Shown here: in pieces, positions 2,464 through 57,720 of the stretch
Layout: the number at the start of each line of letters is the position of its first letter
Position numbering within the stretch: position 1 is the stretch's first letter
Source: Ceratodon purpureus
Lineage: Eukaryota > Streptophyta > Bryopsida > Pseudoditrichales > Ditrichaceae
Length of the DNA: 64,000 nt
Direction of reading: 5' to 3'
Assembly: GCA_014871385.1 (NCBI GenBank)
Contig: CM026421.1
Coordinates: 14,754,548 to 14,818,547, forward strand
Made by a program: the position numbers and the translations under genes
The notes under the pieces: model-generated
Databases searched by the model: none
What the model was told of the DNA's origin: nothing
What the model saw: the letters and a program-made list of their open reading frames with translations, nothing else

Positions 2464-2477
2464 TGTCGGATCCGACA
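2464..2477. promoter_or_regulatory. 14-bp palindrome TGTCGGATCCGACA
   Basis: Perfect dyad, centred on GGATCC, followed by GGTAC at 2506. The same bipartite arrangement recurs at many places in E1 and E2. Confidence 0.6.
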
Positions 2478-2958
2478 ATCGCTTTCGGAAGGAGGTCGAC
2501 ATCGGGGTACTGCGGCTTGACGGTCGGAGCTGGAGTCCATTAGAAACTCGGGGGCCTGGTAAAAGTAGCCCCCCGGGCTTGCTCTTACTGCCCCCTCTTA
2601 CTGTGGAGCGCGCTTGAAGTAACATGGGTGCCAGTTCGATGAATTAGAGAACCCATTGAAAGTGGGAAGATGCTAGATGATTGAGAATTTGTTTACGGTG
2701 AACATGAGATCAATGCCGTGGCTACGGTTATATTCGATAATAAATGCGGAGTAACCGGCCACCTGCATCGTACCATCATCTAAACGGCTCTGTGCGCTCA
2801 ACAATTATATTTTTTAACCACTGGAAGATGGATATTGGTGGACGAGAAATACCTCATCTCTCATGAGTGGCAATAACCAAAGGAGGGGTCCGTCAGAAAA
2901 CTATCCGACGAGGGTCGCCTGGCGCCACCCGCGACATTGCTGAGTGGCCAAAACCCAC

Positions 2959-2972
2959 TGTCGGATCCGACA
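2959..2972. promoter_or_regulatory. 14-bp palindrome TGTCGGATCCGACA
   Basis: Perfect dyad, followed by GGTAC at 3001. Confidence 0.6.
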
Positions 2973-3515
2973 ATCACTTTTGGGAGGAGGTCGAAAGCGG
3001 GGTACTGCGGCCTAGCCCTAAGAGCCGGAGTGGCAATGAAACCCGACAGCCGGGTTGGAATGGCACTCCGGCTGGCTCACACCCGGCCCATTATTAATGT
3101 ACAGTGGGGTTATCTATCGCGGCTGCCGGTTCCATGATTGAGACAGCCCATTCAGAGTGGGACGTACGTAGATGAATGATATTTTGCTAGATGAGTGATG
3201 ACTGTCTGACTGTCCCGGCAGCCATGTAAACCGAGACATTTGCGTAAGTGCAATATGAGTGAGAAGGCATATTTCACACGGAATATTAATATAGATGTAT
3301 TTAAGAAGCTGTAATGAATGTCATACATGGATGCATGCATCAACGGTCGCGCATCTGAGATTTGCGGAAAATGAGTAGTGCCTTCTCCCTTATTCTAGAA
3401 CGTAGATAGTATAACGAAGTCGTCAAGGTAGTCGACCCTAAAGTTGGAGCGAAGCCGGTTCATGATTCGCATCCACGGGAGTTGGGCTAGGAGGTTGAAG
3501 TGGCAACAACGATCC

Positions 3516-6500
3516 TTAGAATGTTACTAGCTCAAGAAGGCCGCTCTCGAGGATCGTCTTCACTTCGTTAAAGCTGAGAGTTGGAGCATGGATGTAAGAG
3601 TCCCGATGCATTTCAAGGTTGCATATCGCGTTGTAGATGTAGTAAAGATGCTTGCAAGGGACCCAGGGAGGACGTTTTCCAAGGGACTTCACGGACATCT
3701 CCTTGAAGTTGGGGCAGGTGCATCCGGGCTCGGGGCCAACTGTGATCTTGTACAAGTTTGACTCGGAAACAGTCTCGGAGACAAGGCTGATTATGCAACC
3801 AAACCCAGGTGTTGGTATCATTGTCACGGATTGGATATGAACCGTGAGTAGAAGCGACGACGCCCAATTGTTCTCGTGCTCGGTTCTAGGTACCCGGTTG
3901 CAGCGACGAATCTTGAAACCTCCACGCACAGTAGGATAAACTCCAGGAGCATCGGGTACAACCAAGTGCGAGAGTTCAAACCGTGGCCGCTGTGGAATGC
4001 TGCCGTCGCCGTCATGGAAAACTCGTTGAGAGGGTAGCTCCTGACGTTGAGGTAGTCTAAAACCTGCAGCCTCTAGGTCCAAAATCTCTCATTTTGTCAG
4101 GCGAGTTCCACGCTTCACGGGCCAGATAAGCGGAGGGGGCGCCATGCTTGAGACCCAATTCCGTTTCGTGCCCATGACGCATCTCTGAATGTCGTCGTTA
4201 CAGAAGCAGAACTGCATCCATTTCTCACGATCCTTCCTGACTTCTGTAAAGGTGCCCCAGTAGTATGGCACAACTGTGGTCTTCCCTCCGCGTACGAGCC
4301 TGGCCTTGCACTTCTTGTTTGTCTTTGCCTGCTGTGCGAAACATGCCTTTGCACAGCCCTTCGGCAGCCTGACAAGATGCCACTTACTGTCGTCCACGTC
4401 CGTCTCCTCTACTGCAGTTACGTGTGGACGAGTCGTATTCTCGTCGGGGCTTCGGACGGGCGAAGAGGCTGCGTCCACAGGTACCGGTCCAGCTTCGACC
4501 CAAGCACGCGTCTTCCTAGTGGCCACCCGTGGTTGTGAGAAGTTTACTTTGTCGGGTCTGTGAGAATCGTATTCGGATCCAATTGGTTGATCCAGCTTCC
4601 GCTTCGTTGAGCCAAAGACCTCTTCGCCTTCTCTGTGGGGCTGACGGGAGAGCATCTGTGGAGCGTCGTCGAAGTGTTCCGTGGCATCAGCAATACGTTT
4701 GGGAATGCCCGACTTCTGAGCCCGCCGTAAACGGAGCTCGGCTTTGCTCGGTCCTTTACCTGGGTTTTCTCCTCTGAGGTAGGCGCTATAGTTCGTGCAC
4801 TGCATGAAGCCCCGGACATAGTCGTCGACTGTGGCCGTGTACAGGCTTATCCCACGGTTGCCTGACATCTGAAGCCAGATATTATGGACAGTCTCTGAGA
4901 GGTTGCACGACGGCATCTCGTCCTTCTCCTCGTCTGTGAGGTTCTGCATTCAAAGAGAATTCCATGAATTTAGCAAGCTCTACGTTCAGTGGCAGCAAGG
5001 GAATCGAATAGAATGACAAGTTTAGCGGAAGAGGACTCACTAATTGCATGTAACCGCCCCACTGCCGGTACCGATAGTGCCAAAAGACGAGCCACTGCTC
5101 CAGATGTTCGAGTCCAGCAGGTGTCGAGGCCGCGGATGAAATCCACCAAGAACGGATGGCATGGTAACGAATGTCGGCATCCTCCCATGTCTTTGCATCT
5201 CGATACTGCCTGCACAAAGCGTAATGTTGCCTTTGGAGATCGTGACCTCGAATGTGAGCCTCCGTATACTTCTTCAATGAACTTGCCCAGTGGAATTGGC
5301 AGGTACGCTCACGGTCGGGCATTGGATCGTCCGCGTTTCCGTTTCCATATATTACTCGAACAGCGTTCCAATTGGCCTGTGCGCTGTCCGCCATGAAGCC
5401 TTTAAAATTGACATTATTCACCTTGTGCTTTGCCATTACCCCGTTCAGACCCCGCCAGAGCAAACTCTGCGCCCGAGCGTCCTCCGACTGCATATCGCAT
5501 ACGGCAACTGTCATAACACGGCAGTATTGGGAGTCATACACATCACATGCCATTGTTGACCAATCCTTCGTTCGCCTGACGTGATCAAACATGATCCACG
5601 CATCTTCCAAGTCTCCGCCAGGCTGCATCCGCTTCACGAGATCCACCCCTGACCCGGGGCCCCTCTCCGACATCTTGAAGACAAAGACCTTCTCGCCCTC
5701 CGCCCCCTGTCCCGAAAATTTGTTCTCGTGTATAAACTCCCATTTGCTGCAACCTCGCAGCGCGGCTATCCCGTCCATTACTCCCTTGTTGCCGACGGAT
5801 CTGAAGGTCGTGAAGTCGTTCTTCAGACCTGGCCTGCTAAGAGGATAATAGAGCCTAAACGCCTGATCGAGCTCCTCATCCGAAAGATATTTACGCACTT
5901 CGCCGGGTTGGGCAAGGAGGAGGTCACTCAAGAAGTCCTTGCTAGCTTCCAATGCAATAGAAGAGGTTTTGCCCTCTGGATTCTGACCGACATGCGACTC
6001 GACGAGGTTGAGGATCTTCTGTTTGCTTAACCTGCAGTCAGCGTATCCTACGGGATGGTCGTGCGTGCCGATATGGATGCACGCACGGGTCATGTCAGCC
6101 CCCCCTAGGACGTAGTATATTCTAGCAGGGCATTGGGCGAGGCATTGCGGAGGAGTCTTGCATATCTTACACACGAGCGTAGACTTCGCAGGGGGATCAC
6201 AACTTACCTGGAAGGGGGTCAGCGACACTCCATCCCACTCAGCCTCGTTGACCTCGCTCAGACGGTTCTCCCCTCGTTTGCGAAAGTCGCAATTGTCATT
6301 GCAGCATCTCAGATGCCCTGCACAAACGGAGTATCGAAACGTAAGCCCAGAGTCGTTGGAAATATTGGACGTCATCGTCTTACACCACGGATGTCCGTCG
6401 TACTTCTTGTCCATTCCTGCCATTGATTTTGCCGTCGATGGAGTCGCGGGGGGCGCGGGAGGAAGCTCAAAAAGCACATCGCCATTGAATTTGCCCGGAA

Positions 6501-7056
6501 GGAAGGGTACCCGCTCTGTCCTCAGCGTAATGAAGTTCAGCCTGGACAACGCATTCTTGGCGCCGGATCGTGAAGCTAGGCGCTTGAGACAAGAGACGAC
6601 ACTCGGGCTACCTAAGGATGACTTCTGCGTCGGTATGGGGTGCTCTTGCGGAGTTCTTAACAAATCGTCCGATTCCCTGAGCACATGGATCTCTTCTACC
6701 ACTCGATCTAACTTCGCGGCCTCAGTACCAGGACCTGCATCCACAGTTGAAGTCATTGAGCGCCCGGGTGTAAGTATCTCAGTCGATGCTGCCCATCGGT
6801 CTGGAGTTAGTCCCCTAGCAACATACTTTCTGGCCTCCAGAAGCCACTCTCTCCCTTCAGTAGTCCTACTGGGCATCTGATAAACCGTGTGAACCAAATT
6901 CCCGCCGTCATCGACAACCTCCTCCTCTAGATGGATGCTCTCCAGCACAAGGTTGTATCTGACACTTAGAAGACCAGCGCTAACGGATCCGACTCCCTCG
7001 GCATTACAAGGTACATGGAGAGGAACTTCATGCCCCTCAGCTCGAATTTGCGCCAT
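3516..7056 (-). pseudogene. T1: MULE transposase of E1, one premature stop
   Basis: Two exons, 7056-5041 and 4943-3516, joined by a GT-AG intron (donor GTGAGT, acceptor TGCAG); 1,148 codons in all. Exon 1 encodes a Cys/His-rich region ending in HIGTHDHPV, the core motifs IMFDHVRR and FMADSAQANWNAV (first and second catalytic Asp of the DDE core) and RTCQFHW (the C-x2-H of MULE cores). Exon 2 encodes a SWIM zinc finger (CTCPNF then CKHLYYI). Such proteins bind element ends and catalyse cut-and-paste transposition in the nucleus. A TGA at 4089-4091 interrupts an otherwise open frame after LTK; the frame resumes EILDLEAAGF as in T2. It lies head to head with P1. SIM-like IHVLRESDD is present. 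It is probably non-functional. Confidence 0.88.
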
Positions 7057-8799: not shown

Positions 8800-8933
8800 G
8801 GGCATTCTGGTGTGGCAGCGGCGAGCAGTGAGCAGTGAGCGGTGAGCAGCCAAAAAACGCACCGGGGGTCAAAAGTGAGCAGACAAAAAACGCACCGGGG
8901 ACCCTATGACCGTGGAAAAAATTACCGCCGGGG
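8800..8933 (+). repeat. E2 left terminal inverted repeat with 33-bp periodic CCGGGG
   Basis: The outer part is built from GCGAGCAGTGAGCAGTGAGC-type short repeats. The inner part has CCGGGG at 8862, 8895 and 8928, exactly 33 bp apart. A subterminal block GACCCTATGACCGTGGA starts at 8900. The right end 53906-54039 is the inverted counterpart. Such regularly spaced words in a terminus are typical of multimeric protein binding; the binding protein is inferred, not shown. Confidence 0.85.
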
Positions 8934-9056
8934 TTCCTATAAACCCATGAGCGAATGAAGTTGAAAAATGAAATTTAGACACCAAGATTCGAGAATCCGC
9001 AAAATATATATAATGAAAAAAAATTGTACATACTAAAAATGATTCTTAGAATCACC

Positions 9057-9077
9057 GGGGGGGGGGGGGGGGGGGGG
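9057..9077 (+). repeat. Run of about 21 G, start of inner E2 left arm
   Basis: Uninterrupted guanines following ATCACC, so the stretch begins as a CCGGGG word like those of the terminus. It could form a G-quadruplex. Length in an assembly is unreliable. Confidence 0.8.
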
Positions 9078-9109
9078 CTGTCACTGTTCTCGGAATTGGA
9101 AGGCTTAGG

Positions 9110-9718
9110 CTACTCATTATCCTGTACCCAATCAAAATCTTCCTCTAAGAAAGCCGATGGTCCGGGAGCTCCATTGCCAAAATCAACAACGTTGTCCGTA
9201 GAAGTCCATGTTGATCTAAGTCTTGGAATGTAGTAATGAAACAGCTCGGGTTCTAGACATGATATCCCGGAAGCACTCTCAACACGCCTGAGTGTGCGAA
9301 CGTCGTCCTCGGTCCAGTCTATCTAGCCTCGATTTGATCGGATCACTTGACGAAGCTGCTGGACGTCAGAGAACATGTCCACCTCCTTACCAGGCCGTCG
9401 ATCTTTGAACTTGTCGGTCACTCTCGAAACGAACTCCCTCAGCTCCCAATTATGCCATGGTAACCCGTCCTGCATCCAGTGGAAGAAGAAGGGTAAGTGA
9501 GGTACACAATCTTGCAGAAAATGCAAACACCTAACTTAAACCGAAGGGAGTAAAGTAAATTCAAAGATATTCAAATCAACAGAAGAGGCAATGAATCGAA
9601 CCCGGAGCATTTCTGAAGTTGGAGGCATCGAAGACTTGATCTCCTCTCGTAACGAGGTATGGCTAGTGGACGAGGATTGAACATGCTGGGCAGAGGGGGG
9701 AGACTGATCCATGACCAC
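9110..9718 (-). pseudogene. Unknown broken gene at the E2 left end
   Basis: An exon on the minus strand runs from 9469 (after CTGGATGCAG) to a TAG at 9110-9112. It encodes DGLPWHNWELREFVSRV, then DMFSDVQQLRQVIRSNRG, a TAG at 9323-9325, then IDWTEDDVRTLRRVESASG and an acidic C-terminus ending WVQDNE. The frame is otherwise open for 120 codons. A probable upstream exon starts near 9718 (MVMDQSPPSAQHVQSSSTSH), but its donor is unclear. No family recognised. It lies about 300 bp inside the terminus and reads toward it. Confidence 0.45.
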
Positions 9719-10008
9719 GGTGTTTGCAAGAGAATGAGAGGAACGATGAATTGAAGCTTAGGTCTGCAATGTAATTCGGAAACAAGCTAAGGGGCTGGGA
9801 GAGAGAAGGAGCAATGCGTTTGTATGAGGTACCTCCTAGCAACTAATAAGAGGCTCAGCCAACGGTGGAGGAAACCAATCATAAATATTAGCTCTTAAGT
9901 GGAGGATAATCAAAACAATTTTGGCGGCCATGGCACATTGAAATAAACACACACGTACGGATATACTGAATGCCTTACCCTTCAACATCTTAGTCTCCCA
10001 AAACATGA

Positions 10009-10022
10009 TGTCGGATCCGACA
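10009..10022. promoter_or_regulatory. 14-bp palindrome TGTCGGATCCGACA, upstream of the 10185 gene
   Basis: Perfect dyad 163 bp before the start codon of the 10185 gene. GGTACTGCGC follows at 10051 (28-bp spacer). Confidence 0.6.
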
Positions 10023-10184
10023 GTCAAAAACTGGACTACAATGTTATTGAGGTACTGCGCATTAATGTGTGAGTTTAGGGTTAACCTGTTTGGATTTGGA
10101 GGATGTGATCTCAAGTTTGTCTCTCTTGTGTTATCACTTTTTTTTGTGATTCGTTTTTAGCCTCCTTAGTTTGAGAATTGTAGA

Positions 10185-10814
10185 ATGGACTTCGCAGTGA
10201 TCACCGACTTGTTCAGCCAGAGTTGGGTCACGCCCGAGTCAGCGATGGCTGAGCTCTTTCCAGACCTCATGCCCGAGTTGCATCGAGAATACATTGAGAA
10301 CTCGGACTGGTGCTATGACTACATGACGCTGCTTGAGAACCTGCGACAAAGAGGTGATCGATGGGTGCTGCTGATTGATTCCATGCCAGCATGGTCGGCG
10401 TATGTGGTGGCTTTCAAAGAGTCGCGAGATGCAAGGAAGCGGAAAGACGAGTGGGGTACAGGTATGGTTCATGCATACTGGACTGAGGCCCTCACGTTGT
10501 TTATGACAGACCGGGTTATCCCATTTGAGATTGACGAGAAACTTGTAGAAATGGAGCTCCGGGATCTTTCATTGCAGCAGAAGGTACTTTTGCGTGACCA
10601 CCTGCGAAATAGTTACACCATGGAGGTGATGGGCCCTCCTCCGGGCTACAGCATTGGCCAGTCCTCCATCTCTGGACCAGGGTCTTCATCCAACGAGAGG
10701 AAAGTGTTTCCTAAGTATTGGGCACCACGAGCACTGCGTTGCGGTCTTCTCTCGTGGCCTTTCCGAAGGAAGGTGCATCTCAACGCGGTGCTTGGAAAGC
10801 GATCACCTCAGTAA
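10185..10814 (+). CDS. Unknown 209-residue protein of the E2 left arm
   Basis: Open frame from ATG at 10185, preceded by a T-rich stretch ending TTTTTAGCCTCCTTAG. The protein is acidic and Trp-rich in the first 130 residues (SQSWVTPESAMAELFPDLMP, DWCYDYMTLLENLRQRGDRW) and has a Gly/Ser/Pro linker and a basic tail (SWPFRRKVHLNAVLGKR). I recognise no domain. A GTAAAAG directly after the stop and a possible acceptor near 10960 mean that a further exon could replace the last residues. Its promoter region holds a perfect palindrome at 10009. G+C is higher than in the surrounding AT-rich arm, as expected for coding DNA. Confidence 0.5.
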   Translation: MDFAVITDLFSQSWVTPESAMAELFPDLMPELHREYIENSDWCYDYMTLLENLRQRGDRWVLLIDSMPAWSAYVVAFKESRDARKRKDEWGTGMVHAYWTEALTLFMTDRVIPFEIDEKLVEMELRDLSLQQKVLLRDHLRNSYTMEVMGPPPGYSIGQSSISGPGSSSNERKVFPKYWAPRALRCGLLSWPFRRKVHLNAVLGKRSPQ

Positions 10815-11724
10815 AGGTAAAAGCTTGGCAAGAATTCCATTTAGGTCTACTGATATTTTCTAGCGTGTGGAATCGAAATGGGCGTACCATGCATGTTTTA
10901 GTCGCGTTTCTTGATAATGAATTGCAGATTTAGTTTGTGCTAATAATTTGGTGCTTTGCAGGTCTCCAACTTAATCTCCAGTAGGATACACCAAGGTGTC
11001 ATCTTTCATTGAGTGAGAGTTTTCCAAGGCATAAAGTATGTATTATATAGTTTCCACACATAGTTCTGAAACCTTTGCAACAATGTCGAAGTTGCTACTA
11101 CAACAGTTTTTTAGAACTAGAACTTTGACTTCCATTGCAGTTGGCACATGAAGTGAATTTATTTTCAGTGTCATGCATTAAATCAACTTATAGAGTTAGG
11201 AACAGCCAGCATGATTTTTACGTTCAGTTTTAAAAGATCTACGTTCTGAAGCGTTTTTGTTCAAGTTTAGGAATAGAAGTGTGCATCTGCAGCCACCAGA
11301 ATGGGATTGGCATGTATATATCACGTCGCATTTTCTAGAATTCAGAATATTGAATGTAATAGGAAGACGTGCAAGTGCTTGCACAATTTTGGATGAATAG
11401 AGTGATTGGCCATCAATATAGTAATCCCTAGAGTCTCTTGACAATGTCCAATTTTCATTTTAAGTGACCATTCATTTCTGTAAAATATTATACTTCAATT
11501 GCGCAAGACTTATCACATCACCTGAGTTTGCGCAAAAAGGATAGCTTCAGATGTTAAGTCCGATATTTCATTTACAAAATTTACATAAAACATAGGGGAC
11601 GCATAGATCCCTCTATAATAACATAGTGTATGTAATGAAACCTAATTAGATATTCCCAGTATCTAATTTGGCACAAATACCGTTAAGCATTGAGGTCGTG
11701 AGTTTGTACTCCTACAAAGCAAGT
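10815..11724. other. AT-rich spacer
   Basis: No convincing gene. A possible acceptor (TTTGCAG) near 10962 could belong to a second exon of the 10185 gene. Confidence 0.4.
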
Positions 11725-12189
11725 TTACTCGTCAGTATCATTGTCAGAGTCACTCAAGAGGATGAGTGAAATTCCATGACCGTCGACAACGGTAGCAAAG
11801 TCCTTCGAACTCACTACACTAATAACAGAGCTATCATTATCAGAATCGTAGCTGTCATCTTCCGAGCGCAGGTCATCCTCTTCGTTGTCAGCGGCATGTT
11901 CTTCCATCCAACGCTGCACCCATGCAGGGATGCCGTCATCAAAACTTTCAACTTCGAAGCACAACGAATGTCCATGGCCTTCGATGCAGATGACATTGAG
12001 CCTGTCACCTTTCCCTTCGGATGCGGGCGGGCTTACCCCTTTTGGGACACAGCCCATCTTAGGTGGCTTAGGCGACTGATTGCTGGAAGCCTTTGACACA
12101 TGATGCACCAAAGCTGTGGGGCAGGAACAAGCAGGGTCGATCACGCACTTTTGGCAGGGCAATGTATTGCTAGGAGGGAGGTTCGCCAT
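11725..12189 (-). CDS. S1: small Cys-rich acidic protein with SUMO-interacting-like tail
   Basis: 154 residues. The N-terminus has C12-x2-C15-x5-C21-x-C23, the same spacing as S2 (16366-16830), and could bind one zinc ion. The middle shares ICIEGHGHSLCFEVESFDDG with S2 (there MCVEGHGRSICFEVKSSDDG), then IPAWVQRWMEE. The C-terminal third is strongly acidic and ends ISLILLSDSDNDTDE, a hydrophobic core followed by acidic residues as in SUMO-interacting motifs. An AG (TCTTGTCAG) directly precedes the ATG, so a non-coding 5' exon is likely. No known family. Copies with shared flanks suggest repeated duplication within E2. Confidence 0.65.
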   Translation of the reverse strand: MANLPPSNTLPCQKCVIDPACSCPTALVHHVSKASSNQSPKPPKMGCVPKGVSPPASEGKGDRLNVICIEGHGHSLCFEVESFDDGIPAWVQRWMEEHAADNEEDDLRSEDDSYDSDNDSSVISVVSSKDFATVVDGHGISLILLSDSDNDTDE

Positions 12190-15762: not shown

Positions 15763-16365
15763 GCTATTAAGTATATGTGAATTCTAATTGAAGATTAGGA
15801 AATTCAAAATTACGAGGACGGAACTTTTTTGTTTCAAATGTTCACAAAAAGAGTTGTGCATGAATTCCATCCTTCCATATCACTCATGATGCCTTATCAG
15901 TAAGAGATATACCCTTTGAATATAGAGAACGGTTTAGCATAATAGTTATTTAATTCAACTTCCTTCTTCAAATTACTTTGGAAGCCATTTCAGTAAGAGT
16001 TATACCCTTTGAATATAGAGAACGGTTAAAATAGCAGTTATTTAATTCAGAGATTACCAGTACTTATCCCGCACACTACCCGAACACTTGCAGTTAATGC
16101 TCATATTTAAAAACTTATAATTTAAATGTATGCGACTATACTAATGAAATCTGAGGAATAAAATGAAACGGAAAATGGACAGAATCATTCTGAAATGAAT
16201 AGGGCAAGCAAATAATATTTTTTTTAGCCGATATATGTACTTTAATAAAGTTACAAAAATTTACAAAATGGAATGCTAATAAAAGCGTCAGTAGCGGTAC
16301 AAGAAATGTACACAAGGAAGAAAATATACTATGCCGAAATTTCACGTAGATCTAAGGAAATACAT

Positions 16366-16830: not shown

Positions 16831-17224
16831 CTGTTAACAGGGAATGAACAGAGAAGAGTTTAGTCCTGTCTTGCCAAAAGAGCGGAGAATGTGTCCTACT
16901 GCTACATAATTCGACCCATCATCACTCTAGAAATTTGAATAAACATCGCCAGCGCTGGGGCCGGGAGATTTGTCATGGTATCATGATCCTCCGCTATATC
17001 GGGCAAGCCAGAATTGGCCTTTTATTTAATAAATACGTCCCTTCCTGGCAAGCCTAGTCTGGAGTTTGTGCATGGTTTAGCTGTATATTTACCACGGTTA
17101 TCCGAGTCGCAAGGTACCATTGAGAAACTATAACTGAGTTTTGAGCCATTCGAAGTTTCACAGTACAACAGAGTTTATACTTAAACAAGCATGGCTTAAT
17201 CTATCAGAAGAGCATAGAACTCAA

Positions 17225-17335: not shown

Positions 17336-17394
17336 ATAAAAATGAAGACCACCACCCCGCAAAGACTGAACTGATTTAACTTACTGAACGATAG

Positions 17395-47100: not shown

Positions 47101-48217
47101 GAAAGATGGTGCCATCTGCCTCATCTACAACATTGATCAGAAGCTGGCTAAGGATATCGAGGAAGAAGCTGCTAATGGTGGATACGTGCTGTTCAAGGAC
47201 TGGTGGGGTGTCAATGTACTCGGCCTGACTTCTCCAACGAACCCCGAGAACTTGGTAATTTTCCTAAACATACCCTTCCCTTTACTGATTGATAACCCTT
47301 CCGCTTAATTTTACTCACTAGTTTTGCTTGACTGCAGACTATGCGGTTCTGGATTCGCGTCTACGTTCGTAGTGGCAGTACTTTCTCCTTCCAGACGAAG
47401 AAGGAAGACCTGATACATGGGCTTCTTAACATTACCGTGAGTGATGCCATTTTCAACTTCACCGATGTGGATTCGCAGCTCATGAATGGGGAGGTGCCGT
47501 GGAGAGGCGCAAGGGAGAAATCCATTGACATGATGCAGGGCATACTTGAGGAGCTGTCAAAGCCCGGCGACATAGTTGTTGATTGGAATGCTGGGACAGG
47601 TAACTATTCATGCATATCTTTGCTGAATTATTCCTCTCGTTTTTACCACAGTTTCTCATTTCTTTGTATCTCTCCGAGTTTCAGGAGCCTCCATCAAGGC
47701 GGCCCAGGCTATTGGTCGTCACATTCTCGCTTTTGAGGAGGACGAAGCCATATTCAACGCCCTTCTCAAACCATCCGCCATGGGCCCTCCTAAACATCCA
47801 AGGCCGGCAGCAGCAGGCGAAGCGCCTCCAAAGAGACCAAGACCTGATAAGTGGTGTAAGTCTTCTATTCTACGTTCAAATTATCCAAGCATTACTTCTC
47901 TTTGCAGCTCTACGTACTCGATGTAACCACAGTCGGTTCTCTATTGCAGAGTAGTTTCAGCATCACCGCCACGTGTGCCAAGTGCAGTGTCCACTCCATC
48001 GTGGCGTCTTCATTCCAGCCCGATTCAGCCTTTCATACTTCCGGACTACGCAGAGGACTTAGCACAGGCGTTTCAATCTGGAGCCCTTACATATGTTCCT
48101 AGTCGGCCAACTACTTTTGATCCCAGAGCCCTTCTATTCGTCGATGACGAGGCGGTAGAAGGAGATTCGGAGTCATCTAGTTCTGAGAGTGAAAGTAGCG
48201 ACTGTAGCATGTTGTGA
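40307..48217 (+). CDS. P3: ParB-like plus methyltransferase-like protein of E3
   Basis: Exons 44256-44839, 44931-45126, 45208-45405, 45497-45712, 45807-46048, 46142-46814, 46901-47254, 47338-47599, 47685-47855 and about 47961-48217 join in phase to 1,051 codons. The first has no Met before the ParB-like domain, so I splice it (phase 0) to 43592, skipping the CTD-like exon, giving about 1,388 residues. An alternative start is the in-frame ATG at 44142. Motifs are LMVPLCRMI and VWEGNHRLAAW (ParB-like), LIIADIPENLPVP (catalytic position), VPWRGAREKSI and IVVDWNAGTGGASIKAAQAI with AFEED (SAM motif I). The C-terminus is acidic with LLFVDDEAVEGD. Two extra introns split the methyltransferase part compared with P2. 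Confidence 0.65.
41620..41800 (+). repeat. Purine-rich short repeats (GAGAGGGACAGG)
   Basis: Irregular 6-12 bp units at the left edge of the 128-bp array, continuing at 42985-43385. The purine/pyrimidine strand bias is strong. Confidence 0.8.
41825..42975 (+). repeat. 128-bp GC-rich tandem array in an intron of the P3 locus
   Basis: Nine units with TCGGCCCCGA at 41862, 41989, 42115, 42244, 42372, 42500, 42628, 42756 and 42884, mostly 128 bp apart; a tenth partial unit lies at 43449. Each unit ends in a short T-rich run after GATGCGCTC(TAG). Long frames exist on both strands because the period is not a multiple of three and stops are few; I see no evidence that they are genes. Confidence 0.9.
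42985..43385 (+). repeat. Purine-rich GGGACAGGGAGA repeats
   Basis: About 400 bp of near-pure purine strand, built of GAGAGGGACAGGGAGTGA(CGGCGC) units. It could form triplex DNA. Confidence 0.8.
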
Positions 48218-48679
48218 GGTTGAAGGAGGCTTCGGTCTACTGTTGTTTTCATTTGATTTGATTTGATTTAATTGGATTTCATTGCCTATTCCTTCGTCTA
48301 CTCTACTTCCCTGAACCTAAACTTGTTATAATTCTCATGTCCAATTTGTCTCCGTGTTTGTAAAGGATGAAATGTCACAACTGTAATGCTCAAAATATAA
48401 TATGAAGAATGAAAAATATAATATAAAGAAAGAAGGACTTCACGAAGTTTTCAAACCTTGCCTCCTTTATGTTCTGTGATATTTGTTTTTTCCCTTGTGC
48501 ATTTACATAATCCTATGAAAGAATTATTTGTTTGGTCTTAAACTTATCGACTGATCATTGTATCTTGCCTAAACCCATGACAAATCTTCAGGAATGCACG
48601 CATGACGTCATCATGACATCAGCCCTAATTTGTATCTTTGAGAATAAACGTAGTAAATTCTTACCAGAGATAATCTCTA
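48218..48679. other. P3 3' region
   Basis: AT-rich, no gene. It lies between the P3 stop and the subterminal repeat of E3. Confidence 0.5.
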
Positions 48680-48864
48680 ATTTCCACGGTAATATACTCT
48701 TTTTCTAAAAAAAGTGTCAAACTTAAGCCTTAATTTAGTAATTTTCCACGGTTTTAGGGTCTACTTTGCTTTTGAAAATTTTCCTAAAACTCAATTCTGT
48801 GCTCTCCATTCTGCGCTCACCGCTCTCCGCTCTACGCTCTCCGCTCACGTACGAACTTTCCCCC
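48680..48864 (-). repeat. E3 right terminal and subterminal inverted repeat
   Basis: The complement starts with GTACGTGAGCGGAGAGCG and reaches the block GACCCTAAAACCGTGGA (48739-48763). A second CCGTGGAAATTAGAG-type block lies nearby at about 48680. Confidence 0.85.
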
Positions 48865-48873
48865 TTCAAGGGC
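48865..48873. repeat. Target-site duplication of E3, right copy
   Basis: TTCAAGGGC. T2 continues directly with Phe-Met-Ala-Asp, as in T1. Confidence 0.9.
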
Positions 48874-50767
48874 TTCATGGCGGACAGCGCCCAGGCCAAC
48901 TGGAACTGTGTGCGGAAGATCTATGGAAGTGGCGACGCGACGGTTCCAATGCCAGACCGTGAGCGTACGTGCCAGTTTCATTGGGCAACCTCACTTAGGA
49001 AGCACACTGAGGCTCACATCATCGGATCAGATTTGCAGAGGCAGCATTACGTGCTTTGCAAGCAGTATCGTGATGCAAAGAACATGGAAGAAGCCGACAT
49101 TCGTTTCCACGCGATCCGAGCATGGTGGACCTCCTCAGGCGCTACTACTGCCTCCGGTCTTCGTGACCTCGAACTCTGGCTCGTATTTTGGCACTTTAGA
49201 TATCGGCAGTGGGGAGGCTTCATGCAATTGGTGAGTACAACATCTCTTTTTTTATCCAGTCACTTAATACACTTATTTGACGTAGAATTGATTGAATCAG
49301 CAATTTCTTTGATTGCAGGACCTTACGGACGCCGAGAAGGACGAGATGCCCTCTTGCAACCTCTCGGAGACTGTGCACAATATATGGCTTCAGATGTCGG
49401 GCAATCGTGGCGACAACATCTACTTTGCCACGGTGGACGATTATGTCAGGGGCTTCATGCAATGCACTAACTATAGCGCCTACCTGCGAGGTGAGACCCC
49501 GGGTAAGGGACCTTGCAAAGCCGAACTCCGTTTACGGCGAGCTCAAAAATCAGGGATTCCCAAGCGCCTTGCCGATGCCACTGAACACTTCCATGACGCT
49601 CCACAGTTGCTCTCCCGTGAGCCGCATCGCGAAGGCGAGGAGCTCTTTGGGTCCACGAAACGGAAGCTGAATCATCCGATCGGATCCGAATATGACTCCC
49701 ACAGGCCGGACAAGGTAAATTTTTCTCAACCTCGTCTGAGCACTAGGAATACGCGAGCACGCAAGGAGCCTGATGCTGAACCAGAGGATTCACCTCCACA
49801 AACGGTCCAAGCGGCACCCCCATCGCCAGTCTCAAGCCCGGACGAGAACAGGAGTCGTCATCACGTAACCGCTGTGGAGGAGACGGATGTGGACGAGAGT
49901 ATGTGGCACCTTGTCAGGCTTCCAAAGGGATCGGCGAAGGCGTGTTTTGCTCAATAGGCGAGGACGAATAAGAAGTGCACGGCGAGGCTCATACGGGGAA
50001 AGAAGGCTACAATTGTGCCATGCTACTGGGGCATCTTCACCGACGTCAGGAAGGATCAGCAAAAATGGATGCAGTTCTGCTTCTGTAACGACGACATCCA
50101 GAGATGCGTCATGGGTACTAAGCGGAACTGGGTCTCCAGCATGCCCCCTCCCCCGCTTATCTGGCCTATCAAGCGTGGCTCTCGCCTTTCAAGGAGGGAG
50201 ATACTTGACCTCGAGGCAGCCGGTTTCAGACTCCCTCAACGCCAAGAATTACCCGCTCACCAAGTTTTTCACGACGGTGCATCTCTCCCACAGCGGCCAC
50301 GGTTTGACCTCTCGCAGTGGAGTGTACCCCCAGCTCCAGGAATATATCCCACGGTGCGAGGAGGATTCAAGATTCGGCGTTGTAACCGGGTGCCACGAAC
50401 AGAGCACGAGAACAACTGGGCCTCATCTACTCTACTCACCATTCGAATCCAATCAGTCACACTCATACCTAACCCAGGTTTTGGGTGCATCATCAGCGTT
50501 GTCTCTGAGACCGTATCGGAGTCTAACGTCTACAAAATAACAATTGGCCCGGAGCCCGCCTGCACCTGCCCCAACTTCAAGGAAATGTCCATCAAGTCGC
50601 TAGGAAAACGACCTCCCTGGGTGCCTTGCAAGCATCTCTATTACATCTTCAATGCTATATGCAACCTTGATATTCACCAGGACTCCTACATCCATGCTCC
50701 AAGCCTCAGCTTTAACGAGGTCAAGGCTATTTTTCAGAGTGGCCTTCTTTCGCTTATCAATGTCTAG
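48874..50767 (+). pseudogene. T2 (3' part): transposase core end and SWIM finger, one premature stop
   Basis: Continues T2 with FMADSAQANWNCV (second catalytic Asp) and RTCQFHW up to 49230. The intron is 49231-49318 (GTGAGT to TTGCAG), and exon 2 is 49319-50767. A TAG at 49955-49957 (FAQ-stop-ARTNKK) stands where T1 has Gln; CAG to TAG is a single C-to-T change. The frame is otherwise open to the SWIM finger (CTCPNF, CKHLYYI). Apart from the E3 insertion and this stop the protein would have 1,157 residues. Confidence 0.88.
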
Positions 50768-51810
50768 GTTTGCTTCTGATGTGTCTTTTTCCCCTACCTT
50801 CATCCTAGGGCGCTCGGTACGAACTCGGTGACATTTTTATTCCTATTACGTCACAGATTAAAGCGGTGGCAAAACTGCTCGTATTCATGTCGGATATTCA
50901 GATCATGTGTTGGCATGAGCATCGTTTAGTATACGGTTCAATCCAGACATTTTTGTATATTTGTATTTATTTCTATAAATATTCTAAGTTTTCCCAGAAA
51001 TTGATCTACTTTATGCGCCAACGATAGTAAAATTTCTTATTATCAATGGTATCCAATCACACCGAAGACATAGAATGCACATGCTCTCACTTCTCTGCTA
51101 TCTAACTGTTGCATCCATCCAAACGCCGTCGCAATTCTCATCCCGAAAAACGTTGTCGTCATGGCATAATGAAGAATTCTGATATTGGGCCGGGTCCCCC
51201 TCATCACGGCCCCTTCCCAAACCCGGCTGACGGTTTTTTTGAGTCCACTTCGTTCCCCTCCCGCGGCAGGGTACCTTGCCTCAAGTCCGTCCCGGAAATC
51301 ATCTGACGGTTCCGGCACTACGTTCTGGGTTTGAACCAAAACCACGGGTGGCGCCCTTCCAGCACTTCAGAGAACTACCCTATGGGTAACAAAATGACAT
51401 CTCAGTAATTTAAGTCCGGTAAAATTCATGTTGATCTCCCGGATGACACAATATTGCAGGGATCCTACTGCCGGATTTTTTGGCAGGTATATATCCCGTT
51501 ATATAATCATCCCGTTTGCTCCATTAAGAGAGATATATGTATTGTATTCTAAATGATGATTAGATAATGTTTTGGAGGTCATCGAAATGCACGCTTTCCT
51601 CATAACCAGAGTTCAAAAAATCTCGGTTAACTCACCTGAATCCTGCCAGACTGCCGCCGAATTCGTGAGAGTACGATACACCTCAATCGATAAAGCTGTA
51701 TTCAATTACCAATGTTTCATTGCTGATTCCGGCGCTCTGTGATTGCTTGTGGGATGGTCTCTATATATGAGGTTAGTGGAGATCGCATAATCATTCTCAG
51801 CTGAAGCCTC
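50768..51810. other. E2 spacer between T2 and the 224-residue gene
   Basis: No gene. A remnant palindrome (TGCCGGATTTTTTGGCA) lies near 51469. Confidence 0.45.
51762..51769 (+). promoter_or_regulatory. TATA box of the 224-residue gene, E2
   Basis: TATATATG, 42 bp upstream of the ATG, conserved with 1955-1962. Confidence 0.55.
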
Positions 51811-52485
51811 ATGCCAATGGACCTCGCGATGAAACCAATCTATTTTAGCCTAGGCCGTAAATCGCGAATTATGTTAGACACCAGCTCCATGATGGATCCG
51901 CAGATCGGGGATATTGTATTTCGCAAACCCTCCGCCCAGGCCAAGATTGAGTTCTCACTCTACCAGTGCGCTGAGGATTGGTCTCAGAATTTTAAGACGT
52001 GGCTTTTGAAAGTGTTTACCTGCAGTGTGGTCTTTGATGATCAATTTCTCCATTCCGTTGACGCTCCAAAGATGATGAGGTGCATCATGCTTTTTGTCTG
52101 GGTACCTGGCCAAGGCTTTCAGGAAGCACCTTCCGGAGGAATCATGACACCTCATATTCCTCCGAGTGAGTCCACAACCTTTCATCGACTGAGTGAGGTG
52201 GGGTTCTTCCCGGACGGCAACAGCGTGACGTTGTGTTTTGCGCAGCCCTCCCCACCCGACCCAGTCACGTTTCTGAGAGTCGATTTCTGGCGAGACACGT
52301 ACCGCCAGGAAGCGTATTCGGGGCTGCAGGTTCTTAACGTTGTTGACAACCCTTCCACGCAGTGCCCTACGCTGCGCATGATTTCTCTATGGAAACGAAA
52401 TGGCGAAAGATGGATTTGTGATAGTTCTGTGATAGGTCCAAGTCTGCAGTCTGTATCGGAGGTGGCGAAGGAAGTTCCCGTTTGA
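51811..52485 (+). CDS. Conserved unknown 224-residue protein, E2 copy
   Basis: Same length as the E1 copy (1246-1920) and nearly identical; the differences are scattered conservative substitutions (for example MPMDLAMKPIYF versus MPIDLAMNPISF). It lies downstream of T2 on the same strand and converges on the 53279-53779 gene. No recognised domain. I see no homolog in E3 or E4, so it marks the E1/E2 subfamily. The conserved reading frame next to a broken transposase argues for function independent of this T copy. Confidence 0.75.
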   Translation: MPMDLAMKPIYFSLGRKSRIMLDTSSMMDPQIGDIVFRKPSAQAKIEFSLYQCAEDWSQNFKTWLLKVFTCSVVFDDQFLHSVDAPKMMRCIMLFVWVPGQGFQEAPSGGIMTPHIPPSESTTFHRLSEVGFFPDGNSVTLCFAQPSPPDPVTFLRVDFWRDTYRQEAYSGLQVLNVVDNPSTQCPTLRMISLWKRNGERWICDSSVIGPSLQSVSEVAKEVPV

Positions 52486-53278
52486 CATCTATGTTGACAG
52501 CATCGTGATATAGTCGCTGTTTTGTAACAGGGTATATTCGTTGTACTGCTTTTAACTTGCTCCCTTAATACATATGTAATCACTTTGATATCAGTCTATC
52601 TTTGCGAAGCTTACATTTGCACATTGTTTGAACCACTACACTTTAATTCTTGAACCAAATTAACAGCAGACTGTGCATCATCAAGCCCCGTTTCACAAAC
52701 CAAGTGTCTGTGTATGTTGAGTTCTTTGTCACTAAACTGTCCCACAAACTATTTTCATTTCCTATCTCACTATAATCCAGGTACCACCGGCTCCAGATGA
52801 TGCAGTAGTCCGGCCGTCGGAGTCCCATGACACTCGGTCGTCCTTCCCTTCACCCTACTACCTTAGTACCGCACCCCTACCATTCTCCTGTATGTGGCTG
52901 ACGGATTCGTCAGTAAGTTTAGTCTTGCCAACAATATCGAGGGTGCCCACCCGTTCAGGACTAACATTGGAATTGTAGAATTACGTCACGGTAACTTATG
53001 GTTTCATAATTAATATAAAAGTTCATAACGCAGGCCGCCCTTTGCACTACGTCCTTGTTACGGATCTTAATTGTACCCAGAATGGAGGTGAAACATCACA
53101 TTAGATCGAGTAAAATTGAAATGTCAAAATTGAAATATTTTCTCGCCCCCCATGTCATTCTTTATTGTACCCAGGTTCGTTAAGATACATGATAACGACA
53201 TTTAGATTTCCTAGGCTCGGACGATGCTACGGCTGCAACCACTAATGCAGTTTACACTTAAATATTTTGTTAGCCTTA
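52486..53278. other. E2 spacer
   Basis: No gene. A degenerate palindrome (CTGACGGATTCGTCAG) lies near 52901. Confidence 0.45.
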
Positions 53279-53779
53279 CTACTGCTCAACGGCAATACTA
53301 TCTTCTCCATCAACAGAAAAGTCTAGCCTCTCCCATCCTTGGTGTTCTTCAAGATTGATTGCAGTATCAGTCGCCGATATGGTTGGCGTTGTTGGTCTCT
53401 CTAAATGCTTGGGCAACTGCGACACGTACATCTTTCCGTCCCCAACGGCACCAGCATATGGATTGGCCGCGCATCTCAACGTCCTTGTCACGATCGGTCT
53501 CATCATCTTTGGCTTCCAACACGGACTTGCGATCCTTGGAATGTTCCTCGAACCGCGAAGCTGAAAATATGGGCCTGCTCTTGGAGGAATCAAGTTCTCC
53601 ATGTTTTCCGCTTTGTCGATCACAGCCACTTCCCTTCCAGACTGAATCGAGTAGTCACCTAGGTTTGAGAGGATATCAATTACTTCGCACTCTTCCGCAC
53701 TCGGAACCCAAGCTTCACAGTCCTCTTTCACCATCCCCATGCCGCTAATCACTTGCGCACATCTGAGGTACCTCAACAT
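53279..53779 (-). CDS. Unknown protein next to the E2 right terminus
   Basis: About 166 residues if translation starts at ATG 53779 (MLRYLRCAQVISGMGM); the open frame extends upstream to 53854 without ATG. Homologous to the E1 remnant at 2-379 (shared LGDYS, AENM, NPYAGAVGDGKMYVSQ, GWERLDFS). A TATATAAC-like sequence near 53866 inside the inner terminus could be its TATA box, so the terminus may carry the promoter. No known domain; acidic C-terminus. Confidence 0.6.
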   Translation of the reverse strand: MLRYLRCAQVISGMGMVKEDCEAWVPSAEECEVIDILSNLGDYSIQSGREVAVIDKAENMENLIPPRAGPYFQLRGSRNIPRIASPCWKPKMMRPIVTRTLRCAANPYAGAVGDGKMYVSQLPKHLERPTTPTISATDTAINLEEHQGWERLDFSVDGEDSIAVEQ

Positions 53780-53905
53780 TCTATGGTCGCCCAAGAGCGT
53801 CTGTCGGATTTTACAGTCTTTCCGCTGCCAATACTTGGGGGCGGTACCTCGCAATTTCCACGGTTATATGCCACACATGCTCGACAAATTTCCACGGCCA
53901 TGGGT

Positions 53906-54039
53906 CCCCGGTGCGTTTTTTGCACACGAAAATATTGGCCCCGGTGCGGTTTTTGTCTGCTCACTTTTGACCCCCGGTGCGATTTTTGGCTGCTCACCGC
54001 TCACTGCTCACTGCTCGCCGCTGCCACAGTAGCATCGCT
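53906..54039 (-). repeat. E2 right terminal inverted repeat
   Basis: Inverted copy of 8800-8933. On the plus strand CCCCGG occurs at 53906, 53939 and 53972, again 33 bp apart, and the block complementary to ACCCATGGCCGTGGA lies just inside. Confidence 0.85.
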
Positions 54040-54051
54040 GTGTTGGAAGAC
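54040..54051. repeat. Target-site duplication of E2, right copy
   Basis: GTGTTGGAAGAC, identical to 8788-8799. The P1 reading frame resumes directly after it. Confidence 0.85.
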
Positions 54052-55539
54052 ATACAGAAGGGATCGATTCGGGACGAGTATATGGACAGCTCACAACCGC
54101 CGACCGTCGCGGTTGGTGGTCAAGTTGGCTCCGACGTCTTCATGGAGGACTTTGTGGATGGGGACGATCACGCGGAATCGGATAACCCACGTGAGGGTTT
54201 GAATCCGACCGGGGAGGAAGAGCCCAAAGGACCCGACGACAAGATCGATGCCGACGCGGTTGTTGCATCAGGCGAATGTGAGGCCGAGGCTGCAACAGGC
54301 GAGGGTGCTGAAGCTCTGATGAGCATGTCGGCCGAAGTTGGAACGGGGGAGGGTGCAGCAGCGGTCCAGTTGCAACCTGCGGGGCGAGTTGGGGTTAACG
54401 AAGCACGAAGGCAGATTCGATCGGAAATGCAGCTGGATCCCTATTTGGCACTTTTAAGAATGAGGCGTAAACCAGACAAGTTGTCATTGATAAAGATTCC
54501 TCTATGTCGATTGCTGCCATGTGATTTCGTTCGACCCGCGATGCTCAGTGACGTTCAGAAATTGCAGACCGAGTTCTCCAATGGGATAAGGCCCGGCTCA
54601 GGGGCATTCTACGTTGCGGCAACGTCGCATATGGGCGAGGAGACACTTGTGACGGAAGAGATGAAGTCTTCCTGGTGTTCAGTGTGGCATATCTTGAACA
54701 GCATGTTCGAGGCGGAGCTATCAAAATACGAGGAAACTCGTGATCTTAGTGGGAAGATGTTCTACGTCTTTGATGGTAATCATCGGACAAGGGCGTGGCG
54801 CGGGTTTATCGATATGGAGTACCCAGATGACTACGACTGGGCATATGCAAATGGAAGACCGGATTGCATACTGTTGGAGGTGAAGGACAGTCGCGAAGCG
54901 CTAGTGACAGCTATGCACGCGATCAACAAGTAAGACTTCCAATTTTCAGCTTGTTCCATTTTTATGCAGTCCAGGGTTTTAACTTCCTTAATTGTCCTAA
55001 TGGAACTAACATCTCTGCCTATGCAGGGCCAACGAGGAAGCTTTCATCAAAGAGAGACTGCCTCACACACTGCACAAGATTCAAACCTATGGAGGCATGT
55101 CCGCTGAGGATTTGGAAAAGAGTGGTATTTTGCCCCCAGATCTCATGGCCCGAACGAAGGCGGCTCCCAAGAGGTCGTGGCATACCATGCCGCACGAAGT
55201 CTTTGTGTCCTTTCTTCACGCGGTAAGTAACTCAGAATTTCTGAATTCCGAAGATGATGATTGGTTCATTGAGGTACAGAAACAAATATTGACATGTCAA
55301 TTTACTCAGGGGACACTGGCCCGAGTCGCTGAGGAGGCAGTGCAGCTCTGGATTACAGAGCACCCAGACGAAGACACCGGGGCTGAGATGAAGAATGCTG
55401 TGGAGAAAGCAGTCAAAGAAGCGAAGGATAAGTTGCAAAGCAAGTTCCAGAAGGAGCTGTCGGTGGCAAACCCGGCGCACGGAAAGGCGTTTCATGCTGA
55501 GGTATGTCCCCAAATTTGCGCATGGGTCTCCTAGAACTT

Positions 55540-56510
55540 AGAGATCAAAAGAGCATTGTCCGATCCGATATTGGTAATTCTGTTCAAGTAATATCGTGGT
55601 AACGTGTGTTCCTTAAATATTATTGTGGAAAATCTGTGTTGTTCAGTGAGGTACTTTTACAATTTTGGGAAAGGGTCTCGTAAGACAGAGAGGTCAAAAG
55701 AGCATTGTTGGATCCGACAATGATAATTTTTAATCTGTAATGTTGCGGTACTTTGTGTCCCTGAAATTTTATTCTCGAAATTCTCTAATGTTCAGTAAGC
55801 TTTTTTTGTAAATTTGGGCAAGGGTCACGTAAAACTTAGAGAACAAAAGAGCATTGTCGGATCCGATTTTTGTAATTTTGTTCAAGTAATATCGCGGGAC
55901 TGCGTGTCACTCAAATTTCATTCTCGAAATTCTCTGCTGTTCGGAGAGCTATTTTTTTAAATATGGGCAAGGGTCTCATAAATCCGAGAGGTCAGAAATG
56001 CATTGTCGGATCCGACAGTCGTTATTTGGTTCAAGTAATTTTGCGGTACTGTTGGTCCACGAGATTATATTGTCGAAATTCTCTGCTGTTCGGAGAGCTG
56101 TTGTTTTTAATTTGGGCAAGGGTCTCGGAAATCCGAGAGGTCAGAAATGCATTGTCGGATCCGACAGTCGTAATTTGGTTCAAGTAATTTTGCGGTACTG
56201 TTGGTCCAGGAGATTTCATTCTCGAAATTCTCTGATGTTCGGATAGATATATTTTTTAAATGTGGGCAAGGGTCTCGGAAATCCGAGAGGTCAGAAATGC
56301 ATTGTCGGATCCGACAGTCGTAATTTGGTTCAAGTAATTTTGCGGTACTGTTGGTCCAGGGTATTTCATTCTCGAAATTCTCTGATGTTCGGATAGATAT
56401 ATTTTTTAAATGTGGGCAAGGGTCTCGGAAATCCGAGAGGTCAGAAATGCATTGTCGGATCCGACAGTCGCAATTTGGTTCAAGTAATTTCGCGGTACCG
56501 TGTTAAATTG
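55540..56510 (+). repeat. 150-bp tandem array A in P1 intron 4, palindrome - 27 bp - GGTACT
   Basis: Palindrome windows start at about 55557, 55706, 55855, 56004, 56153, 56303 and 56453, spaced 149-150 bp. Perfect TGTCGGATCCGACA occurs in the last four, each followed after 27 bp by GGTACT or, in the last, GGTACC. Confidence 0.88.
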
Positions 56511-56649
56511 TATGGTTATATGTCCAATATCACCCAATTATTGGACAAATGAGCTTAAATTCATGATACCGGCGTTAAAAACTAACTCTACATGCTAGAA
56601 TTCGTGAAAATAGTGCAAGTCCTGTGATATTTGAACTACCACGAATCGT

Positions 56650-57720
56650 ATTATAGGATCCGACAATGGTTTTCGGAGAACTAAAAGTGCAGGGGTCTTC
56701 AAAAAGTTTGATCTTCAAAATGCTCTGTAGGATCCGACAGCGGTTTTTTTCGGTTTTCAAATGTTGAGGGGATGTCGTTTTTCTCCGGATGCATGTTCTG
56801 TAACTTTAATAATCGGTGCCAAACTCTTGAGATTTTTGCGAGGGGTCTTCAAAAAGTTTGATCTTCAAAATGCTCTGTAGGATCCGACAGCGGTTTTTTC
56901 GGTTTTCAAATGTTGAGGGGATGTCGTTTTTCCCCGGATGCATGTTCTGTAACTTTAATAATCGGTGCCAAACTCTTGAGATTTTTGCGAGGGATCTTCA
57001 AAAAGTTTGATCTTCAAAATGCTCTGTAGGATCCGACAGCGGTTTTTTCGGTTTTCAAATGTTGAGGGGATGTCGTTTTTCCCCGGATGCATGTTCTGTA
57101 ACTTTAATAATCGGTGCCAAACTCTTGAGATTTTTGCGAGGGGTCTTCAAAAAGTTTGATCTTCAAAATGCTCTGTAGGATCCGACAGCGGTTTTTTCGG
57201 TTTTCAAATGTTGAGGGGATGTCGTTTTTCCCCGGATGCATGTTCTGTAACTTTAATAATCGGTGCCAAACTCTTGAGATTTTTGCGAGGGGTCTTCAAA
57301 AAGTTTGATCTTCAAAATTCTCTGTAGGATCCGACAGCGGTTTTTTCGGTTTTCAAATGTTGAGGGGATGTCGTTTTTCCCCGGATGCATGTTCTGTAAC
57401 TTTAATAATCGGTGCCAATCTCTTGAGATTTTTGCAAGGGGTCTTCAAAAAGTTTGATCTTCAAAATGCTCTGTAGGATCCGACAGCGGTTTTTTTCGGT
57501 TTTCAAATGTTGAGGGGATGTCGTTTTTCCCCGGATGCATGTTCTGTAACTTTAATAATCGGTGCCAAACTCTTGAGATTTTCGCGAGGGGTCTTCAAAA
57601 AGTTTGCTCTTCAAAATGCTCTGCAGGATCCGACAGCGGTTTTTTTCGGTTTTCAAATGTTGAGGGGATGTCGGATTTTTCTTGACGCATGCCGTGTAAC
57701 TTTGAAATTTGGTGACTTGA
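56650..57720 (+). repeat. 150-bp tandem array B in P1 intron 4, TGTAGGATCCGACA - 27 bp - GGGGATGT
   Basis: Seven units with GATCCGACAG at 56731, 56881, 57030, 57179, 57328, 57477 and 57627 (149-150 bp). The unit sequence (AAAAAGTTTGATCTTCAAAA, CGGATGCATGTTCTG) is unrelated to array A. A linking palindrome at 56652 lies 74 bp before the first unit. Confidence 0.88.

Follow-up and report, generated by a model that had tools for sequence, protein, structure and literature searches.

How do transposons recognise their own copies, and how do very large DNA transposons stay active? Both of these open questions are touched by a 64,000-nucleotide stretch of the Ceratodon purpureus genome (contig CM026421.1, here C1, positions 14754548-14818547; "the window" below means this whole stretch), which holds nested elements that we denote O, Q and N. 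A palindrome, TGTCGGATCCGACA, recurs in O and Q with short G-rich words at a fixed distance from it. The original prediction, made from the sequence alone, had described a one-way pair in which the palindrome is followed, after 27 bp of free spacer, by GGTAC, CCGGGG or GGGGAT. The recurrence and the fixed spacing proved real, and all eleven coordinate pairs that had been given as examples are present in the sequence (27688 is a form with five mismatches and 28187/28146 a minus-strand half-palindrome). The unit, however, is not a directional pair but a dyad of about 75 bp, B-27-A-27-B, in which A is the palindrome and B the outer word. Such sites may serve the elements in marking, protecting or controlling their own copies.

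In the window the palindrome occurs 8, 9, 6 and 8 times with 0, 1, 2 and 3 mismatches, respectively, against 0, 0, 0.25 and 1.65 expected under a first-order Markov model. One of the three words follows 24 of these 31 palindromes at the predicted distance (18 at 27 bases and 6 at 28), and outside the two tandem arrays described below this holds for 10 of 14. We built a symmetric position weight matrix (PWM) from 18 representative sites, reducing array copies to representatives and excluding the site at 53802 from the held-out models. With this model, 47 sites in the window score 8 bits or more, where a second-order Markov background predicts 0.2. When each site was scored by a model from which it had been left out, 17 of the 18 still reached at least 19.8 bits, and 53802 fell to about zero (0.0 and -0.6).

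The symmetric profile shows the same features on both sides: TCCGACA at the centre, G.TTT at +10 to +15, a G at +17 and a G-rich block at +32 to +37. Read outward from the centre, the half-site is T-CCGACA-G-nn-G-n-TTTT-n-G, followed by about 14 loose bases and then the G-rich word (GG at +35/+36). We rejected a directional bipartite motif as the general form: the profile carries the word on both sides, although at many sites it is distinct on just one of them. Complementarity between the arms was 0.77 at positions 0-7, 0.43 at 7-10, 0.47 at 10-18, 0.31 at 18-32, 0.61 at 32-37 and 0.26 at 37-48, where random sequence gives 0.25. Since the arms match in blocks only and the middle of the spacer is near chance, a hairpin or RNA-level explanation was also rejected.

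The blocks remain visible when sites with a related spacer are left out of the comparison. The T-tract block then exceeded the random 95th percentile in 14 of 19 right and 14 of 19 left arms and the word block in 11 and 8 of 19, respectively, compared with 2 of 19 on either side for the middle spacer. The idea of a free spacer therefore holds for its middle part (18-32) and fails for its first 10-11 bases (+10 to +17 from the centre). Because the T-tract block next to the palindrome is conserved, part of the spacer would itself be a partial contact surface. Block recurrence has a period of about 10.5 bp (permutation p 0.005); the corresponding power peak is small (0.064, against 0.053 near 15 bp).

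A scan of the genome (362,488,568 bases in 151 contigs), made with the exact palindrome only and yielding counts that are lower bounds, found the palindrome in at least 591 places; a hand calculation from length gives about 1.4 expected, and a reversed-pattern control gave 0. A genome-wide gap distribution had been suggested as a check, and for CCGGGG it is not flat. Within gaps of 12-42 bases from the palindrome, CCGGGG occurs in at least 100 places, with a peak of 92 at 27, 4 at 28 and 4 at 37, and in at least ten palindromes it stands at 27 on both sides. GGTAC, compared over gaps 0-28, stands 27-28 bases away in at least 292 places; shorter gaps (0-26) account for 4, two of 26 bases and two of 15. 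The 14-mer was also present in 47 stretches of IMG/VR, in one place each, which we read as chance.

Enrichment inside elements of this type, also foreseen by the prediction, was seen in the regions sampled. The 33 exact palindromes of regions R1-R4 outside the window carry a G-rich word on two sides in 7 cases, on one side in 22 and on neither in 4, with a wider word set (GGTAC, CCGG, GGGG, GGGT) and a background of 6.8% per side. Three other copies of O (C1:6.07-6.12 Mb, C2:7.95-7.99 Mb and C2:11.49-11.53 Mb) show the same two sites at a distance of 495 bp; a site like that at 705 is found in the two C2 copies only. Their intron arrays vary in copy number, the C1 copy having 27 or 28 units of the GGGGAT class. 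The model also matches beyond its training set, for example at C1:6093694, where CCGGCGG and CCGCCGG surround a degenerate palindrome. In fetched stretches, seven exact palindromes with spacers unrelated to those of the window reduced to four distinct ones; scored without the palindrome, three of these exceeded the random 99th percentile, and the fourth, at 6113390, lay between the 95th and the 99th. When the 35 CCGGGG spacers were reduced to 8 at an identity below 0.5, few positions besides the CC beside CCGGGG passed the null: only +13.5 (at the limit) and +16.5 at 99.9%, and +11.5 and +12.5 at 99%.

Where do the dyads lie? Of the 47 sites, 33 are found in what is putatively the same intron, between the S and M parts of a gene present in both elements (18 in Q and 15 in O), and the remaining 14 are in other gaps (Table 1). 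By the gene table none of the 47 overlaps an exon; the weak site centred at 53808 does overlap the Y2 open reading frame (ORF) as listed (53279-53854). No dyad of at least 8 bits was found in N, in the part of its second copy that falls in the window, or in the divergent P/S spacers 7057-8724 and 30711-32448, the latter of which has a single half-site at 31769; nor does N hold a cognate perfect palindrome with 7-base arms. Steps within the arrays are 74-75 or 149-150 bp with a few multiples, and two (199 and 262) do not fit. GGTAC and GGGGAT classes occur in both introns, in opposite order along the gene and with different unit sequences. Besides the array units, the single sites 2464/2959 and 19978/23561 are duplicates. 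The observed/expected CpG ratio is 1.00 and 1.21 in the arrays, compared with 0.88 in window positions 1-31000, 0.74 in N and 0.74-0.93 in larger stretches; the higher ratio fits open DNA, which is only suggestive. Elsewhere in Q, a 13-bp tandem repeat, TGTCCGAACTCAC (17395-17462), resembles a dyad half-site plus its left flank (ACTCACTGTCGG at 2464).

Table 1. Dyad sites, genes and elements of the window. Dyad coordinates are spans of about 75 bp; bits are per-site scores of the symmetric PWM.
Feature	Position	Strand	Remarks
Dyad in O, X1/Y1 3'-3' spacer	674..749		palindrome 705; 43.5 bits
Dyad in O, P1/X1 spacer	2433..2508		palindrome 2464; 54.3 bits; same place in three other genome copies
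Dyad in O, P1/X1 spacer	2928..3003		palindrome 2959; 60.0 bits
Dyad in Q	9978..10053		palindrome 10009; 42.6 bits
Dyad in Q, CCGGGG class	12959..13034		palindrome 12990; 46.0 bits
Dyad in Q, found by model only, degenerate centre	13908..13983		CCGGCGG/CCGCCGG flanks; CCGGGG 74 bp apart; 36.9 bits
Two dyads in Q	17986..18195		palindromes 18017 and 18151; 35.6 and 43.5 bits
Dyad in Q, two-sided CCGGGG 74 bp apart	19947..20022		58.0 bits
Dyad in Q	22136..22211		palindrome 22167; 46.1 bits
Dyad in Q, two-sided CCGGGG 74 bp apart	23530..23605		51.8 bits
Array of 18 sites, mostly 74-75 bp steps, putative S1-M1 intron of Q	26986..29034	-	tandem repeats, PWM, splice-like borders, flanking exons
Dyad in Q, P2/X2 spacer	51273..51348		37.6 bits
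Dyad in Q, X2/Y2 3'-3' spacer	52868..52943		36.7 bits
Weak site, Y2 5' end	53771..53846		palindrome 53802, centre 53808; 16.7 bits including itself, 0.0 left out
Array of 15 sites, mostly 149-150 bp steps, S2-M2 of O	55526..57666	+	putative intron 55502-57727; GGTAC then GGGGAT class
P1, transposase-type gene of O, several exons	3516..7056	-	49% identical to T over aligned exon
P2, transposase-type gene of Q, interrupted by N	32449..50767	+	
S1-M1 of Q, read as a single gene	24882..30710	-	S part, array-bearing intron, M part
S2-M2 of O past the Q insertion	54037..58803	+	exon 1 begins at 8725
Element Q	8800..54042		45.2 kb including N, ~30.5 kb without N; in exon 1 of O's S2 gene
Q left terminal inverted repeat	8811..8914	+	CCGGGG at 8862 and 8895; third word at 8928 just inside
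Q right terminal inverted repeat	53925..54028	-	CCGGGG at 53972 and 53939; third at 53906 just inside
Element N	34138..48864		14.7 kb; within Q's P2 gene; no dyad site
Second copy of N	58804..64000		within O's M2 gene, continues past window end; no dyad site

The sites had originally been placed in two elements, E1 and E2, and these units were not borne out; instead we find an outer element O, Q within the S gene of O, and N within both. The S gene of O starts on the plus strand at 8725 (29 residues, 86% identical to the start of P0122) and resumes at 54037 (99% identical), so that its match is split by Q into 8725-8811 and 54037 onward. The position of this match on either side of Q, together with the fitting target duplications, led us to reject a reading of E1 and E2 as a facing pair of elements. 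Q is bordered by a 9-bp duplication, TTGGAAGAC, at 8791-8799 and 54043-54051 (12 bp in common if GTG is counted), and its terminal inverted repeats of 104 bp have 8 mismatches, with 97.8% identity across the first 90 bp. N is bordered by the 9-bp TTCAAGGGC at 34129-34137 and 48865-48873 and has AG-rich terminal inverted repeats of which about 47 bp align; its two copies are 96.4% identical across 5.2 kb, and it has a 128-bp tandem array of its own (41778-42991) without dyad sites. A blastn search of the R1 copy found no terminal repeats of O. Target site duplications of 8-11 bp are given for Mutator-like elements (MULEs) in the consulted part of PMC6446971, and Q and N show both such duplications and terminal inverted repeats. 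O and Q are probably two related giant MULEs.

Within the window the gene order of O and Q is alike: Y, X, P, then a divergent S-M. These assignments come from a gene table made by hand from ORFs, exons and homology, which is incomplete at 8.8-24.8 kb and in which Y2 is cut at 53750. In the exon compared, P of O and P of Q differ at 304 of 553 third codon positions. S and M read as one gene with an intron between them; the S part has a GNHR motif and the M part is N6/N4 DNA methylase-like (PF01555, E 0.0024, below cut-off). Relatives of both parts are also present in N. In a plant-like genome, a DNA methylase encoded by a transposon would deserve attention in its own right.

The ends of Q offer a link between the dyads and transposition. 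Each terminal region holds three CCGGGG words in exact 33-bp steps, and the third on the left, within the string TACCGCCGGGGTTCC from 8923 on, has the form seen at internal dyads. Since CCGGGG is common to the terminal regions and the internal dyads, the outer word of this class is tied to what is probably the transposase site. CCGGGG occurs 19 times in the left part of Q against 5.8 expected, and 3 times in N against 3.9. The dyads themselves are not concentrated below the termini: the left end of Q has none in its first 1.2 kb, and the right end has a weak site at 0.2 kb and another at 1.1 kb from the tip.

What, then, reads the dyad? From its directly observed sequence, symmetry, spacing, locations and genome-wide recurrence we infer both a binder and a function. 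We tentatively favour the explanation that it is a dyad-symmetric, ~75-bp binding site of one or more element-encoded proteins, perhaps including P, that serves element-wide chromatin control. The geometry, with its blocks and fixed spacing, points to a protein complex. The original idea of a protein or oligomer with fixed contacts agrees with the block symmetry and the ~10.5-bp recurrence, and needs amending in that the unit is a dyad and the spacer next to the palindrome would also be contacted. An element-made homodimer or homotetramer would likely bind the dyad, its subunits meeting the same face of the DNA about every turn. It is plausible that P reads the outer G-rich word through a GCM/WRKY-like zinc domain, such as the one predicted in a structure model of its relative T, the transposase of N, because the terminal regions of Q also hold CCGGGG three times each. 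As the most likely of several functions, suggested by analogy, the bound complexes would mark the noncoding DNA of the element and hold it in an open state or under a shared control, a self-specific form of anti-silencing. The arrays, in which dyads are amplified within the putative S-M intron of O and Q, would raise the dose of bound complexes. P, T and S had been named as candidate binders; T is an unlikely one, since N and the in-window part of its second copy have no site of at least 8 bits.

Two observations weigh against this explanation. Many of the genome-wide places are mutual copies and hence not independent events, and exact words stand at the left 27/28 position in only 7 of the 31 window palindromes, and on both sides in only 4.

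It can also be imagined that the dyad is read jointly by the transposase, at the outer words, and by a second element protein, at the palindrome, with the arrays in the intron of the methylase-like gene serving self-marking, anti-silencing or copy-sensing. Such a two-protein, geometry-coded self-recognition is more speculative, and we hold it to be doubtful.

Other explanations start from the same observations. Phage Mu transposase binds an internal enhancer, and on this model P would bind both the terminal repeats and the internal dyads, bringing distant ends together. The CCGGGG words shared between the ends of Q and its dyads fit such a transposition enhancer, as does the GCM/WRKY-like domain modelled for T, and elements of at least 30 kb may need help with synapsis. 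However, sites occur throughout the element, with a concentration in an intron that is remote from the ends, neither the GGTAC nor the GGGGAT class resembles the terminal word of Q, and the related N (14.7 kb) does without sites; we therefore consider an enhancer unlikely. The same degree of doubt applies to autoregulation, in which S-M or another element protein would act on the intron array and the spacers to tune or block transcription, as a roadblock or an intronic enhancer. That the arrays occupy the same S-M intron of O and Q, each with GGTAC and GGGGAT classes, speaks for it; yet the divergent P/S spacers hold none of the 47 sites, two sites are in 3'-3' spacers, and other sites are kilobases away.

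A partition- or replication-like role, with a ParB-like S protein on the palindromes as parS-like sites, seems quite improbable. The GNHR motif of the S part resembles the ParB box, and the sites are clustered palindromes. Against this, six S sequences gave no ParB match in Pfam and a search of solved structures up to E 10 showed no ParB, which leaves S as a proven ParB unsupported, and O and Q are chromosomal insertions; the structure model of S is too poor to judge (mean predicted local distance difference test score 40). We think it very improbable that the motif consists of neutral satellites or dispersed duplicates whose spacing is kept by common descent only. The duplicated array units and single sites, and the mutual copies in the genome, are what such repeats would give. 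Yet across sites with unrelated spacers the blocks are conserved and the middle spacer is near chance, the match in symmetry on both sides is not produced by descent alone, and O and Q share their layout despite the divergence of P. Of the four rivals so far, neutral repeats thus fit worst with the conservation of blocks on the two arms. Finally, a nucleosome-phasing or centromere-like satellite with a 149-bp unit, recalling the step of most array units (74-75 or 149-150 bp), is hardly credible when 14 of the 47 window dyads lie outside the arrays at unrelated spacings.

Among known systems, the distribution of the dyads, in introns, intergenic gaps and arrays and with none in N, appears closest to that of the VANC targets of the VANDAL elements, which are Mutator-like transposons of Arabidopsis. 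According to the consulted parts of PMC5735166 and PMC10398659, the VANC-target motifs are, like the dyad, family-specific, located in introns, intergenic and other noncoding DNA, and multiplied into tandem repeats whose sequences differ from one related family to the next; both systems also include motif-free relatives, N here and other VANDALs there. The VANC motifs described in these parts are of 8-9 bp, whereas the site here is two-sided, 75 bp long and of fixed helical spacing. We saw no dyad reported for VANC motifs, and the strings "palindrom" and "spacing" are absent from the main texts of PMC5735166 and PMC10398659. The dyads of O and Q thus have the character of a family-specific noncoding motif with tandem repeats, save for the weak site 53808 in a listed ORF. 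CACTA and hAT elements have subterminal transposase sites (TNPA of En/Spm, Ac), which are repeated element-specific motifs, direct and inverted, near the ends. They resemble the dyads as short, repeated, element-specific motifs, there bound by an element protein; the dyads, in contrast, are mostly internal and intronic (33 of 47), and only the CCGGGG word reaches the end regions of Q. The internal enhancer of phage Mu and P1 parS, with its A and B boxes, combine two word types at a fixed helical distance in one complex. In this the dyad is similar, but those systems are prokaryotic and occupy a single locus, while here hundreds of copies occur in eukaryotic transposons. The palindrome string and TCGGATCCGACAG occur in no paper of the literature searched, and nothing matching appeared in titles and opening lines of abstracts on MULEs in connection with ParB, giant transposons or methyltransferases, or on transposon N6 methyltransferases.

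These sites would offer a recognition code readable from sequence: a dyad of fixed geometry, with hundreds of natural variants in one genome and with the related, dyad-free N to serve as control. Should the transposase, acting with a partner, be the binder, a single code would connect the recognition of the ends with the marking of internal DNA. Q is also notable for its size, even without N.

Several neighbouring features deserve mention. In gene X (1246-1920 and 51811-52485) only 25 of 225 third codon positions distinguish the O copy from the Q copy, far fewer than in P, and X was therefore probably exchanged recently between the two element families. Residues 1-87 of the T model form an N-terminal domain that resembles ubiquitin-like folds, such as the N-terminal domain of TDP-43, and may be an oligomerisation module. 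In N, a CxC..CxH pattern seen in 35833-37299 may mark a SWIM zinc finger (PF04434, E 0.14, below cut-off), a feature given for many MULE groups though not for all. The window has eukaryotic traits, namely a fragment of eukaryotic small-subunit ribosomal RNA (rRNA) and genes that read as spliced; a viral or prokaryotic origin was rejected, tblastn having found no relatives in IMG/VR (scanned with T and a transposase alignment) or in GTDB genomes (scanned with P1). The rRNA piece, a diverged 5' part in Q (16700-17221, minus strand), adjoins an 18-bp tandem repeat and the 13-bp one and lies just upstream of a small acidic ORF (16366-16830). The product of this ORF and that of another small acidic ORF of Q (11725-12189) are alike by eye, and the two are probably duplicates. 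A further ORF of Q (20809-21240) encodes heptads like those of the RNA polymerase II tail (YMPTSPV) and has an 82% identical stretch in N (43740-44126).

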